Assembly (NCBI GenBank): GCA_021823165.1 | Contig: JAKAOS010000003.1 | Location: 1-45,697 of the forward strand | DNA: 45,697 bases | Source: Actinomycetes bacterium | GTDB lineage: Bacteria; Actinomycetota; Acidimicrobiia; Acidimicrobiales; JAKAOS01 | Direction: 5' to 3' | Shown: positions 28,890-36,482 of the stretch, one piece after another | How positions within the stretch are numbered: the stretch's first letter is position 1 | Layout: each line of letters begins with the position of its first letter | Position numbers and translations under genes: made by a program | Notes under the pieces: generated by a model | Seen by the model: the letters and a program-made list of their open reading frames with translations, nothing else | Told to the model about the DNA's origin: nothing | Databases searched by the model: none

Positions 28890-29146
28890 TGTCGGTACAC
28901 AGCTGTACGAGATGTGAACTACTCTTTGCAACCGCCGCGGAAGCCAGTGATCACGAACGCCACGACCATGGCGTCGAGCACTCAACCCCAATCGGCGAAT
29001 ACCGCCACCGGGAGGCCCCGGGCATCGACCCGCCAAATGCAGCCTTGCACTGCCCAGAGTGCGGGCTGTGGTTCGCCGATGGGACCCAACTCGTACTGCA
29101 CCGCTCCAAGGAGCACCCCGAGAGCGGCACCCGCGGTCGGCCCTAG
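28890..29146 (+). CDS. small protein with two C2H2 zinc fingers
   Basis: An 85-residue protein with two classical fingers: CTRCELLFATAAEASDHERH (C-x2-C-x12-H-x3-H, residues about 6-26) and CPECGLWFADGTQLVLHRSKEH (C-x2-C-x12-H-x4-H, about 56-77), joined by a polar linker. AGGAGG lies 6 bases before ATG 28890. Such fingers are common in eukaryotes and rarer in bacteria; here they probably bind DNA, RNA or a protein. Its stop codon overlaps, head to head, the stop of the TetR gene on the other strand (shared CTAG). Function unknown. Confidence 0.75.
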
Positions 29147-29760
29147 GCCGGACGCAACAAGCTCTGCACCTCCGCTCCCACCAGGAGAGCAAGCTCCTCC
29201 AGCGGCAGCGACGCCATTGGTTCCAACTTCAGCACATGGCGCGCCATCACCACCCCCAGCAGGGTCGCAGCGGCCAGCGATGCCCTCGTCGAGGCCAACT
29301 CGCCAGCCAACGCGGTGGCCAGGAGACCGCCGATGGCCTCAGACAGGAAGGATCCCAGCAACTCGGCCGAGTGCTCGTCGACCACGGCCGAACGCAAAAG
29401 CGCTATCAGGGCCTGGCTGCTGGTCGGCTCCTCCCAAAGCTTGAGAACCCTTCCGGCCAGGCGCTCCCCCAGGGTATCGGGGTCTCCCGGGAGCACCTCG
29501 GAGAGGATGACCACAGGGTCGGCGGGTAGGTTTAACGCGGCTGACACGAGTCCGGCTTTTGAGCCGAAGTAGTGGTTGATGAGCGCCGGGTCGACGCCTG
29601 CATCTTTTGCCACCGCTCGCAGCGACGTGCCCGCAATCCCCTTCGCTGACAGGTGGCGCCTGGCAGCCACGATGATCTGCCCCCTGGCGTCTGAGGGACC
29701 CTTCCTCCTCCCCCTCGACCGAACCTCGCCAGTGCCCTCCGATCCAGCAGATTCGCTCAA
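29143..29760 (-). CDS. TetR/AcrR-family regulator
   Basis: A 205-residue TetR-type repressor. The DNA-binding helix-turn-helix is around residues 35-65 (LRAVAKDAGVDPALINHYFGSKAGL). The C-terminal ligand domain has no recognisable subtype. I chose TTG 29760: AGGA lies 5 bases upstream and the start overlaps the permease stop (TTGA). It is the third gene of an ABC exporter operon whose promoter carries a 20-bp palindrome, so it very probably represses its own operon and responds to the exported compound. Confidence 0.85.
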   Translation of the reverse strand: MSESAGSEGTGEVRSRGRRKGPSDARGQIIVAARRHLSAKGIAGTSLRAVAKDAGVDPALINHYFGSKAGLVSAALNLPADPVVILSEVLPGDPDTLGERLAGRVLKLWEEPTSSQALIALLRSAVVDEHSAELLGSFLSEAIGGLLATALAGELASTRASLAAATLLGVVMARHVLKLEPMASLPLEELALLVGAEVQSLLRPA

Positions 29761-30494
29761 GGCGTCCTGCGCCGAAGGGTCAGAGCACCCGCCACCACGG
29801 CCGCCGGCACCGATGAGGCCAGCACCACCAGGTCCCGCACAAAGTAACCAGACAGGTTTGCCCCCTGAGACACCCTGGAGACGCCGTCGAGGGCATAAGT
29901 CAGCGGGAGCGCCCAGGAAATCCAATGCAACACCGCGGCCATCGAGTCACGCGGCACGAACAGGCCGCACAAGAGGAGCTGGGGAAGCACGAAGGCCGGG
30001 AGGAACTGCACGGCTTGGAACTCGGTACGGGCAAAGGCGGAAAGGAACAGCCCAAGGGAGGATCCCAACAGCGAGGACAGCAGGGCCATGCCGAGTATGG
30101 CCCACAATGGGCCTGCGACATCAAGCCCCAGCGGACCCAGGGCAATCGAGGCAGTGAGTCCGGCCTGCACCACGGCGAGGGAGCCAAATGCGAGGGAGTA
30201 TCCCCCAAGCAGCTCAGAGTTTCGCAGGGGCGAGGTGAAAAGCCGCTCCAGGGTGCCCCCGGTGCGCTCTCGCAGCATCGAGATGGAGGCCACCACGAAC
30301 ATCGCCGTGAAGGGGAACAGTGCAAGGACCGCCGGTCCGCTGTGCTGGAAGACGGCCCGCTGCCCGGAGAACGCATATCGCAACAGCGTCATGAGCACCG
30401 AGGGCACCACCATCACCATCACCAGGGTTCGCGGGTCATGACGAATCTCGACGAGCAGTCGCCCCGCGGTTGCCAAAACCCTCCTGCCCTTCAT
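29757..30494 (-). CDS. ABC-2 type transporter permease
   Basis: A 245-residue membrane protein with about six segments: an N-terminal basic stretch (EIRHDPRTLVMVMVVPSVLM), the ABC-2 motif RERTGGTLERLFTSPLRNSE, then hydrophobic helices including LPAFVLPQLLLCGLFVPRD. It resembles DrrB-type drug export permeases. It overlaps the ATPase gene by 4 bases upstream and the TetR gene by 3 bases downstream. Confidence 0.88.
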   Translation of the reverse strand: MKGRRVLATAGRLLVEIRHDPRTLVMVMVVPSVLMTLLRYAFSGQRAVFQHSGPAVLALFPFTAMFVVASISMLRERTGGTLERLFTSPLRNSELLGGYSLAFGSLAVVQAGLTASIALGPLGLDVAGPLWAILGMALLSSLLGSSLGLFLSAFARTEFQAVQFLPAFVLPQLLLCGLFVPRDSMAAVLHWISWALPLTYALDGVSRVSQGANLSGYFVRDLVVLASSVPAAVVAGALTLRRRTP

Positions 30495-31225
30495 GCCGCC
30501 TCCCTCTCTGCCTGCTGCACCAAGGCGATAAACGCAGCGTTCAGGTCGGATGCCCCGGCTCGCTCGAGGAGGGACGCCGGAGATCCAGCGGCCACAACCC
30601 GCCCCTCACGCAGCAGAACCAGTTCGTCGCAGCGCGACGCCTCTTCCATCACGTGGCTGCTCACAATCACCGTCGCGCCAGCCGATGCTTTGGCTCTGAA
30701 CTCCCCCCACAACCGCTCCCGCAGCAACGGGTCCAATCCGACGGTCGGCTCATCGAGGATCAAGACCTCCGGACGAGGGAGCAACGCCACGGCAAGCGAC
30801 ACCCGGGCTCGCTGGCCGCCCGAAAGTCGATCGACCCGGGCCTTTGTGAAGGGGACCATGTCGACCTCTTCCAATACCTCAGCAACCCGCGCCCTTGGCT
30901 GATTCACCAGCCGTGCGAAATAACGGAGGTTCTCCAATACCGTCAGGTCCCCATAAAGGGCGGCGGCCTGGGGCATGTAGCCCACTTTTGAGCCAAGCCG
31001 GCGATCTCCGGCCTCGGCGCCCAGGACCGAAATGCTTCCCGAGGTAATCCGCTGCAGGCCCATCATCGCCCGCATCAGCGTGGTCTTTCCCGACCCACTC
31101 GGCCCCAGGAGCCCGAAGATGACCCCGGCGGGGATATCCAGGCTCACCTCGTCAAGCACCACGGACCCCCTGCGCCGGACCAGCAGGTCGGTTATCGCTA
31201 TTCCTGGTCGGTCCGGGGAGGCCAT
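30491..31225 (-). CDS. ABC transporter ATP-binding protein (DrrA-like)
   Basis: A 244-residue ABC ATPase with Walker A GPSGSGKTT, Q-loop MPQ, signature LSGGQRARV, Walker B VLILDEPTVGLD and switch His in SSHVMEEA. It drives the adjoining permease. No ribosome binding site precedes ATG 31225; a well-spaced promoter puts the transcription start on the A of ATG, so it is probably leaderless. First gene of the ATPase-permease-TetR operon. Confidence 0.9.
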   Translation of the reverse strand: MASPDRPGIAITDLLVRRRGSVVLDEVSLDIPAGVIFGLLGPSGSGKTTLMRAMMGLQRITSGSISVLGAEAGDRRLGSKVGYMPQAAALYGDLTVLENLRYFARLVNQPRARVAEVLEEVDMVPFTKARVDRLSGGQRARVSLAVALLPRPEVLILDEPTVGLDPLLRERLWGEFRAKASAGATVIVSSHVMEEASRCDELVLLREGRVVAAGSPASLLERAGASDLNAAFIALVQQAEREAA

Positions 31226-31231
31226 GGGATT

Positions 31232-31260
31232 ATTTCATCACGTGATGAAATCTAAGTCAA
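31232..31260 (-). promoter_or_regulatory. promoter with embedded TetR operator
   Basis: On the minus strand TTGACT (31255-31260) and TGAAAT (31232-31237) are exactly 17 bases apart, and six bases later the ATG begins. The spacer and -10 are filled by ATTTCATCACGTGATGAAAT (31232-31251), a perfect 20-bp palindrome. A bound TetR dimer would block RNA polymerase. The -35 box overlaps the stop codon of the DUF6295 gene upstream. Confidence 0.75.
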
Positions 31261-31565
31261 GCCCCGTCTGCCCATGCCGCCAGGACCTGGCGGGCGGAGT
31301 CTGTCTGTTCGGACATGCCATCGGGCAGGGCTGCCAGCACCGCAACGATCCGCTTGGCCAGTTCCATGGCGGTTTGGGGTTCCAACTCCACCGCCACCCT
31401 CGAAGGCCCCTCTTTGAGGTCCAAGAAGTCGATGTTGAGGCTGTGCTCCAAGGGAGCATCCTGAGGGTGGTCGAAGTAGACGGTCGCGTCCGACAGCCTG
31501 AACCACCTGTCTCCGCCCTTTGCGCTTCCCCAAGCCGCAAGCCGCTCGGTGATGTAGGTGCACAT
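31257..31565 (-). CDS. DUF6295 family protein
   Basis: A 102-residue soluble protein beginning MCTYITERLAAWGSAKGGDRW and containing FRLSDATVYFDHP and HSLNIDFLDL, which fits the DUF6295 family as I remember it. No catalytic motif or assigned function is known to me. GGGGAG lies 6 bases before ATG 31565, and the gene starts 1 bp after the dienelactone hydrolase stop, so the two are co-transcribed and perhaps functionally linked. Confidence 0.75.
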   Translation of the reverse strand: MCTYITERLAAWGSAKGGDRWFRLSDATVYFDHPQDAPLEHSLNIDFLDLKEGPSRVAVELEPQTAMELAKRIVAVLAALPDGMSEQTDSARQVLAAWADGA

Positions 31566-31566
31566 C

Positions 31567-32310
31567 TCAACTCCCCAGGTGTTCTGCGAAGAAATCCATC
31601 ACTCTCTGCCAGCCATCCACGGCGGCCTCCGGCCGGTAGGAGGGGCGATCGGGATCAAAAAAGGCATGGCCCGCTCCCTCGTAGAGGCGGAACTCGAATT
31701 GCTTGCCGGCCGCCCGCAAGGCGTCGGCCAGGACCTCGTTATCAGACGGGGAGGGAAACTTGTCCTCGGCCCCAAACACACCGAGCATCGGACAGGAAAG
31801 AGTTGGCGCCCGGTCCACCACGGGCTCAACCGACAGCGGGCTGCCCGGCGGCGGCGTGCCCACGACAAAGGCGCCGTAACAGTCCACCAGAGCCTGCAGT
31901 TGCAGTTCACAAGCGGCGAGGAAGGCCTGCCGTCCACCTGAACAGAAACCAATGACCCCGACCTTGCCGTTCGAGCCTTCAAGGGACCGGAGCAGATCGG
32001 CCGCCCCCGAGACGTCCCCCACGAGGCGAGCGTCCGCTATGCCCCCCTGTGCTCTCACAAGTGCCGCCGCATCCTGGTCCGAAGTGCCACCGGTGGCTTC
32101 CCTGGAGTAGAGGTTGGGACACAACGCCCTGAAGCCCGCAGCGGCAAATCGACGGGTTATCTCCCTTGTCGAACGGTCGTAGCCGGGAAGGTGGTGAATG
32201 ACGACCACCGAACCAACCGGCTGAGTGCTTGCCGGTGTGGCGAGATATCCCCTGATGCGGTCGCCACCCCAGCCGGAGATTTCGATCTCTCTGGCCTCCA
32301 AAACTTCCAT
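31567..32310 (-). CDS. dienelactone hydrolase family protein
   Basis: A 247-residue alpha/beta hydrolase of the dienelactone hydrolase type. The triad is Cys123 (GFCSGGR), Asp183 (FGAEDKF) and His215 (GAGHAFF), the Cys-Asp-His set of this family. GGGAGG lies 5 bases before ATG 32310, which decides the start although the frame is open further upstream. It probably hydrolyses a lactone or ester in the cytoplasm; the substrate is unknown. It is followed directly by the DUF6295 gene. Confidence 0.87.
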   Translation of the reverse strand: MEVLEAREIEISGWGGDRIRGYLATPASTQPVGSVVVIHHLPGYDRSTREITRRFAAAGFRALCPNLYSREATGGTSDQDAAALVRAQGGIADARLVGDVSGAADLLRSLEGSNGKVGVIGFCSGGRQAFLAACELQLQALVDCYGAFVVGTPPPGSPLSVEPVVDRAPTLSCPMLGVFGAEDKFPSPSDNEVLADALRAAGKQFEFRLYEGAGHAFFDPDRPSYRPEAAVDGWQRVMDFFAEHLGS

Positions 32311-35174: not shown

Positions 35175-36482
35175 TTAGGCGGCGGCTGTGACGGTCTCGT
35201 CGACCTGACCGCGGGGATCTCCGGCGGTGGGTGGGTCGAGCAGCTGGTGGCGTAGCTCTTGGAGCTGGCGAACGGTCGCGGGCGTCATGGTGACGCCTCG
35301 CCAGCCCCGGCTGGCCCGGTCGAGCACGGCCCAGACGAGACCGAGACAGGAACGCTCGCCCGGCAGCCGGCCGATGACCTTCACCCTCCTCCTCGTCTCC
35401 CCGAAGGTGCGCTCGATGAAGTTGGAGTGGCGGATGCGCTTGTGGTGCTCGGCCGGGAAGCGCAGGTAGGAGAACAAGCTGGCCAGGTCGTCGTTCAAGC
35501 AGGCCACGGCCGAGGGGAACCGCCGGCCGAAGGTGGCGGAGAAGTCAGCTGCACGCTTGGCGGCCACGGCGATCGAGGCCTCGCCGGGGGGATCACCCGT
35601 CGGGTCGAAGATGGCCCAGTAGGCGGCCTTCACCTCGCCCTGGTGCTCGACGGGCACCTTGGCGAGCACGTTGCGGGCCCGGTGGATGGCGCAGCGCTGG
35701 CGCAAGCTGTGGGGGAAGGTGAGCTCGACGGCTGCGATCAGGCCGAAAGCGCCGTCGGAGACGACGAGCAGCGGGGCTCGCAGCCCCCGGGCGACCATGG
35801 CGTCCAAGAACGCCTTCCAGGCGTCGGTCGACTCACTCGCGCCCGAGTCCAGGCCGACGAGCACCGGGCGTCCCTCGGTCGTGATGCCCCACGCGGCGAG
35901 CACCGGCTCGGCCCGGGCGCCGTCGTGCATGCGGAAGTGCGACCCGTCCAAGAACAGGTACTCGAGGCTCACCTCCGACAGGTCCCGGGTCTTCCAGGTA
36001 TCGAGCTCGTCCTTGATGGCCTCGCAGATCCGGCTGACGGTCGACTTCGACAGCGCCGCCTCGGCGCCGAGGGCATCGGCGAGACTCGCTTCGACGTCGC
36101 GGACCGAGAGCCCCCGGACGAACCCGGCGATGACCAGGCTCTCGAGCGCGTTGGTGCGGCACACGCCGATCCCGAGCAGCCGGGACGCGAACGCCTCGTC
36201 GGTGCCGCGTAGCTTCGGACGCTCGATGGTGACCGGCCCGGCGGTGGTCTTGATCGTGGTGGGGCAGTGCCCGTTGCGGCTCCCCGACCGGACGCGCTCG
36301 CCGTGGCTGTAGCGCTCCCGGCCCAGGAACTCGGTGACCTCGGCCTCGATGGCGGTCTGCATGAGCAGGCGTACGCCGAGGCGGGCCACCTCCTCCAGCA
36401 CCTCGCCGAGCTCCCGCTCGGAGCTGAACAGGTCGTCGATCTCCGCGCGGATGCGCTCGATGGGCGATACTCGTGTCGACAC
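35175..36482 (-). CDS. IS256-family (mutator-type) transposase
   Basis: A 435-residue DDE transposase, apparently intact. The acidic triad lies in LDGSHFRMHDG, VSDGAFGLIAAV and NFIERTFGETRRR; the CAIHRARNVLAKVP segment is typical. The GTG start at 36482 lies at the base of a hairpin (36481-36534), a common device that blocks translation from outside transcripts. Full length suggests a recent or still active element. Confidence 0.9.
   Translation of the reverse strand: MSTRVSPIERIRAEIDDLFSSERELGEVLEEVARLGVRLLMQTAIEAEVTEFLGRERYSHGERVRSGSRNGHCPTTIKTTAGPVTIERPKLRGTDEAFASRLLGIGVCRTNALESLVIAGFVRGLSVRDVEASLADALGAEAALSKSTVSRICEAIKDELDTWKTRDLSEVSLEYLFLDGSHFRMHDGARAEPVLAAWGITTEGRPVLVGLDSGASESTDAWKAFLDAMVARGLRAPLLVVSDGAFGLIAAVELTFPHSLRQRCAIHRARNVLAKVPVEHQGEVKAAYWAIFDPTGDPPGEASIAVAAKRAADFSATFGRRFPSAVACLNDDLASLFSYLRFPAEHHKRIRHSNFIERTFGETRRRVKVIGRLPGERSCLGLVWAVLDRASRGWRGVTMTPATVRQLQELRHQLLDPPTAGDPRGQVDETVTAAA

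Follow-up and report, generated by a model that had tools for sequence, protein, structure and literature searches.

We analysed a stretch of 45,697 nucleotides (nt), the whole of which is called the window here, from an Actinomycetes bacterium (GenBank assembly GCA_021823165.1, contig JAKAOS010000003.1). Its minus strand carries three genes, for the ATPase and the permease of an ATP-binding cassette (ABC) transporter and for a TetR family repressor, preceded by a perfect 20-bp palindrome, ATTTCATCACGTGATGAAAT. We propose, with a probability of about 0.72, that this is an autorepressed ABC-2 exporter operon in which the palindrome occupies the spacer and the -10 element of the promoter, and that transcription starts most likely at the A of the ATPase ATG, which would yield a leaderless mRNA. 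Binding, repression, induction and start site are predicted from sequence as follows. A TetR dimer would bind the 20-bp palindrome and keep RNA polymerase off the -10 element, until a ligand, probably a metabolite of the cell or a compound that the pump handles, frees the repressor. Exporter and repressor would rise together on release, and the pump would stay raised until the signal is gone. The elements and genes concerned are the following.

31232-31251, no strand assigned: perfect palindrome ATTTCATCACGTGATGAAAT, probable operator of the operon's TetR, conserved as TTCA-N8-TGA[AG] before homologous ATPase genes
31255-31260, minus strand: TTGACT, candidate -35 element (5 of 6 positions), overlapping the stop codon of the preceding DUF6295 gene; of the 30 relatives whose start codon falls inside the operator, 27 have TTGAC at 35-37 nt from that codon, on its upstream side
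31232-31237, minus strand: TGAAAT, candidate -10 element (4 of 6 positions of TATAAT, no A at position 2), in the right arm of the palindrome
30491-31225, minus strand: ABC transporter ATPase, 244 aa (PF00005, 115.5 bits); ATG at 31225-31223, its A the predicted +1
29757-30494, minus strand: ABC-2 type permease, 245 aa (PF01061, 114 bits)
29143-29760, minus strand: TetR family repressor, 205 aa (PF00440, 52 bits; PF17920, 91 bits); its TTG start overlaps the permease stop

All three proteins matched their Pfam families above the cut-offs. The ATPase and permease genes are adjacent with a 4-nt overlap, and both domains of an ABC-2 type exporter are present. The repressor belongs to the TetR family by its N-terminal helix-turn-helix domain (PF00440, 52 bits against a gathering score of 24), and its ligand-binding C-terminal domain matches PF17920 (TetR_C_16) at 91 bits against 26.2, over positions 1-107 of the 107 of the profile. 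The gene order ATPase, permease, TetR and the position of the repressor gene are those given by an earlier reading of the window, made from the letters alone (the sequence-only reading). As the last gene of the operon the repressor should be autoregulated. A more specific name for the exporter was not supported by the curated NCBIfam cut-offs: the DrrA/DrrB assignment was rejected (TIGR01188, 170 against 312.45 bits; TIGR01247, 33.7 against 223.05 bits), and the score for the DrrB-family efflux protein TIGR00025 (Mtu_efflux) was 98 against 146.9 bits. The nearest solved sequence relative of the repressor is 2np3 ('Putative TetR-family regulator'; E 7.6e-28 over residues 9-202), and we take SCO0857 to be the locus name of that protein. 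A literature listing under SCO0857 or 2NP3 contained no paper on its function. A search for the ATPase in viral contigs found nothing.

On the minus strand TTGACT (31260-31255) is followed by 17 nt, by TGAAAT (31237-31232), by the six nucleotides AATCCC and by the ATG (31225). The spacing that the sequence-only reading had called perfect is thus there, as are the exact 20-bp palindrome over spacer and -10 element, whose right arm ends in TGAAAT, and the overlap of the -35 element with the preceding stop codon (TTGACT begins within the TGA at 31259-31257). The words 'operator' and 'start site' in that reading are interpretation, not observation. At up to 3 mismatches the palindrome had a single match in the window and none in any of the shuffled sequences. 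The scan for further copies that the same reading had suggested returned none in the organism's own genome (one genome, 2.2 Mb) at this threshold. Perfect palindromes of at least 20 bp numbered two, including this one, in the 261,057 bases of the own genome that were covered. Matches to the 20-mer with no more than 3 mismatches occurred in 6 of 59 genomes of the order, own included. Judged by the reading frames around them, the matches in the other five genomes are not at exporters, and three of them fall to a zinc-ribbon gene that is unrelated.

The assignment of the palindrome to the linked TetR comes from comparison. The order contributed TetR relatives in 26 of its 397 genomes searched at E 1e-15 (own included), and named genomes contributed a further 80 loci, which were the best of 580. 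ATPase matches of at least 180 bits were also examined (57, two being the window's own gene), and a TetR was counted as lying in the same stretch if the fetched locus contained a TetR match of at least 60 bits at any distance up to 6 kb. Some loci are near-copies of each other, and the counts are not counts of independent events. With the window excluded, all 47 ATPase relatives that had a related TetR in the stretch contained a site with 13-19 of 20 matches to AWTTCATCACRTGATGAAWT, beginning between 92 nt upstream of the expected ATPase start and 2 nt past it. In the eight ATPase relatives that lacked a TetR the best scores were 9-14 of 20, at scattered places. The pattern [TC]TCA.C....G.TGA[AG] had 83 matches in the 925,022 bases of the 80 TetR loci (reversed control, 0) and none in the 6.5-10.7 kb fetched around each of the eight TetR-less ATPase genes. 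A scan that took no account of genes found TTCAWCRCRTGRTGAA in 13 of 296 genomes of the phylum, own included, against 2 matches for the pattern read backwards. In 10 of the 12 other genomes the core stands before an ATPase-permease pair whose ATPase is 46-55% identical to that of the window; in two it does not. Because site and regulator occur together across the phylum, the palindrome very probably serves as operator for the TetR that the operon itself encodes, as the sequence-only reading had supposed.

Among more distant TetRs of the order, found at permease-ATPase-ATPase-TetR operons, the operon is preceded by AGTTCAACGATCGTTGAATT in L065-L067 and by AATTCAACGCGTGTTGAATT in L069, and in L073 ATTTCATCATATATTGAAAT stands directly before the TetR gene. 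The eight TetR-less loci (L201-L208), all from the order, carry the ATPase-permease pair (ATPase 47-56% identical) with neither repressor nor operator in the fetched sequence; there the exporter exists without this control.

Operator and promoter are arranged in three layouts, the first of which was counted in 30 loci. These were the 30 listed with the start codon at offset 10, less six with tandem operators and a Shine-Dalgarno-led start downstream (L093, L115, L125, L133, L137, L146), plus six Streptomyces loci in which the ATPase runs off the stretch or is not reached. The layout script favoured the strand with TTGAC when both strands fitted, which is a slight bias. In the first layout, shared by Streptomyces, Kitasatospora, Nocardioides, Actinomadura and others, the dyad axis of the operator marks the first base of the ATPase start codon, and the frame from this codon is open for 60 codons in all 29 checkable loci. 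Counted from the operator start, TTGAC is at -27 to -25 in 27 of the 30, which places it at the distance from the start codon given in the feature list, and NAnnnT lies at -3 or -2 in 29. By its TTGAC spacing this would be a layout of the leaderless type. The second layout is that of Micromonosporaceae and Geodermatophilaceae (L115, L121, L125, L138, L139, L149-L151, L160, L167 and others). Upstream of the ATPase these often carry operators in twos or threes, with a spacing of 16 bp in 19 pairs, and the start codon after them is led by a Shine-Dalgarno sequence. Many of these tandem arrays have TAGCGT or TACCGT, both TAnnnT, inside the first operator. The window represents a third layout, in which TTGACT stands 35 nt before the ATG as in the first and the perfect operator lies 16 bp upstream of the start-centred position. 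Relative to that position TTGACT (-25), the hexamer (-2) and the ATG (+10) are placed as in the first layout. In some relatives the TetR gene comes first (TetR-ATPase-permease) and the one site listed lies between it and the ATPase gene; there the TetR gene need not be autoregulated.

The start-centred position of the window may retain a trace of a second site.

31216-31235, minus strand: possible degenerate operator with its centre at the ATG, lying 16 bp further downstream than the perfect site; seen by eye and suggestive only

Its left half agrees with the consensus AWTTCATCAC at 7 of 10 positions and its right half at 3 of 10, as counted by eye. We tentatively place the window, at somewhat less than even odds, in an Actinomycetota-wide family of cassettes with a single multifunctional 20-bp element, as a shifted form in which the start-centred site has decayed and the perfect operator corresponds to the upstream position of the 16-bp tandem pair of Micromonosporaceae. 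With the same reserve, the element in this family may have five jobs: it would bind the repressor, form the edge of the -10 element, contain the transcription start, supply the start codon at its dyad axis and make up the first three codons (MMN, MVN or MMK). Of greater interest is what the relatives show, where several genera have kept a start codon on the dyad axis of a repressor site.

Whether the ATPase mRNA is leaderless was judged from several signals. The A of the ATG falls where a start site would be expected from TTGACT and TGAAAT. The candidate -35 element is a TTGACn whose distance of 35 nt from the ATG suits a leaderless promoter and compares with 35-37 nt in 27 of the 30 relatives, and no Shine-Dalgarno string was seen by eye in the 22 nt before the ATG. 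Actinobacterial leaderless promoters have TTGACn, a -10 element shortly before the start codon and no Shine-Dalgarno sequence, according to studies in Streptomyces lividans (PMC8079986) and Mycobacterium tuberculosis (PMC3898074) and to a survey (PMC3160421). The window resembles them in TTGACn and the missing Shine-Dalgarno sequence, and is unlike those of S. lividans in the G at the second -10 position. In the own genome we surveyed 193 starts of long open reading frames (261 kb), using a crude caller of longest frames that misses some true genes, probably the window's ATPase too. TAnnnT at -15 to -12 preceded 19 of the 193 starts against 1.85 expected, so leaderless-type starts are common in this genome. 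A start at the A of the ATG, as proposed in the sequence-only reading, is therefore likely.

Several observations weigh against this start or against the scheme as a whole. TGAAAT at -12 departs from the TAnnnT rule by its second base, TGnnnT is not enriched at -15 to -12 of the own-genome starts (7 against 7.8 expected), and the second -10 base is A in 94.5% of S. lividans leaderless promoters (PMC8079986). A strict consensus scan of 31000-31600 listed no promoter; the spacing is right, but a strong promoter this is not. In the 30 relatives the start codon forms the centre of the operator, and in the window the operator is displaced from that position by 16 bp in the upstream direction. A simple rule linking site and TetR is broken by 24 of the 33 TetR loci listed without a strong linked ATPase, which show no site; the TetRs concerned may act at other targets. 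Neither the TetR nor the ATPase has a close relative in the two genomes of the same family, which leaves the exact arrangement without confirmation from a near neighbour.

The strongest competitor for the start site keeps the same operator and repressor and uses another -10 element.

31249-31254, minus strand: TAGATT, rival -10 element (TAnnnT), at the upstream edge of the operator; the RNA would start at about 31239-31242

The RNA would then begin inside the palindrome and carry a leader of 14-17 nt with a micro-frame GTG-ATG-AAA-TAA. TAGATT conforms to TAnnnT, TAGnnT is the commonest leaderless-type -10 in the sampled own genome (11 of 19), and 22 of 30 relatives have an NAnnnT at the position of this hexamer, operator offset -3. 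The best -35-like hexamer 15-20 nt upstream of it, however, reaches only 3 of 6 positions, in contrast to the TTGAC present there in 27 of 30 relatives; reading from the start codons within the operator soon meets a TAA; and the leaderless distance of TTGACT from the real ATG would be a coincidence. We consider this start doubtful. The micro-frame itself (31226-31241, minus strand, ending 4 nt before the ATPase ATG) would matter only to an RNA that begins within the palindrome or before it. Both candidate -10 elements share bases with the operator, so the logic of repression does not depend on which of them is used.

Transcription might instead reach the cassette from the genes upstream, with the palindrome acting as a roadblock or regulating only part of it.

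31257-31565, minus strand: DUF6295 protein, preceding gene (PF19812, 104 bits); TGA stop at 31259-31257
31567-32310, minus strand: dienelactone hydrolase family protein, next gene upstream (PF01738, 155.7 bits)

Both neighbours are on the same strand, the gap between the DUF6295 stop and the ATPase ATG is only 31 nt, and no terminator-like site was found in 31000-31600. The promoter elements, on the other hand, are situated within that gap, and the DUF6295 protein had no match among the 80 related loci (best 80 of 580). By these comparisons the DUF6295 gene appears to be outside the cassette in the relatives, and the cassette travels without it. This reading is unlikely.

That the palindrome serves a regulator other than the linked TetR is very improbable. 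The TetR loci without a site would agree with it, and so would several Streptomyces loci in which the TetR is 4-6 kb off or outside the fetched stretch, a loose linkage. The site is nevertheless present wherever the exporter is linked to a TetR and missing from all eight TetR-less exporters, and operator-bearing loci cluster on the TetR tree (18 changes against a shuffled mean of 36.6, near-copies helping). The window itself is not firmly placed in the TetR tree, nor in the ATPase tree (long branch, no starred set). A role as RNA, as hairpin, attenuator or terminator, is hardly credible: a transcript through the palindrome could fold into an 8-bp stem with a 4-nt loop, but the relatives have the site upstream of, on or across the start codon at varying distances, as expected of a DNA site, its right half is coding in 30 of them, and a terminator was rejected, there being no T-run and no terminator call in 31000-31600.

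The proposed operon, with a probable repressor site on its promoter, has two published counterparts. The mycobacterial TetR repressor RaaS (Rv1219c) represses its own ABC efflux pump operon Rv1218c-Rv1217c from two repeats around the -10 element, the second of which includes the predicted start codon (PMC3993263), and it responds to oleoyl-CoA (PMC4155686). The window is like it in having a TetR autorepressor that shares an operon with an ABC efflux pump and a site at the -10 element; it differs in its single 20-bp site, of the type TTCATC-N4-GATGAA, and in having the TetR gene last. An operator of the RaaS type, in which the -10 element is flanked by two direct repeats that have TGAAC-N4-GTTCA arms, was rejected: the window has one palindrome of other sequence, and at up to 3 mismatches no second copy was found in the own genome. 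The Mesorhizobium nreAXY nickel efflux operon has a dyad operator in the spacer between -35 and -10 elements, a compact promoter, an mRNA leaderless by 5'-RACE (rapid amplification of cDNA ends) and its own repressor NreA (PMC12724321). Operator in the promoter spacer and an efflux operon encoding its repressor are shared; leaderlessness was determined there by 5'-RACE and is here likely from sequence. The nre repressor is of the CsoR/RcnR family, not a TetR, is metal-responsive and comes from alphaproteobacteria. Between them, RaaS and nre have already brought each half of the idea into print, though for other regulators or a different operator. The operator strings searched for occurred in no paper of the literature collection covered, and a search for a TetR operator on a leaderless start brought up no such TetR case, which does not prove that there is none.

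The operon is accordingly an ordinary autorepressed exporter cassette, akin to the operator-on-promoter designs of RaaS and nre, and not a new kind of system. Its value lies in a testable candidate operator for a broad clade of TetR_C_16 regulators: AWTTCAWCAC-RTGATGAAWT tracks one exporter across many genera, so regulons should be predictable from sequence. Operators on the start codon, 16 bp before it or in tandem before it form, moreover, a natural series for studying how a repressor site shares bases with a leaderless start.

Two further observations were made. A different palindrome, of the type TTTCGTCACGTGACGAAA, occurs in 21 of 198 genomes of the window's order at up to 1 mismatch (reversed controls, 0). 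Of the 21 loci searched, 12 have it across the start of a small zinc-ribbon gene, with a GTG at the palindrome centre (L222, L225, L227, L229-L233, L236, L240-L242; also L002-L004; near base 1501 of each), and the protein begins VTK or VTE, followed by CxWC...GRPRxxCxxxCRQ. It is a second start-codon-centred palindrome, unrelated to ATTTCATCACGTGATGAAAT. In the window itself, a 435-aa open reading frame at 35175-36482 on the minus strand resembles by eye a mutator-type (IS256-like) transposase and is a candidate for one.
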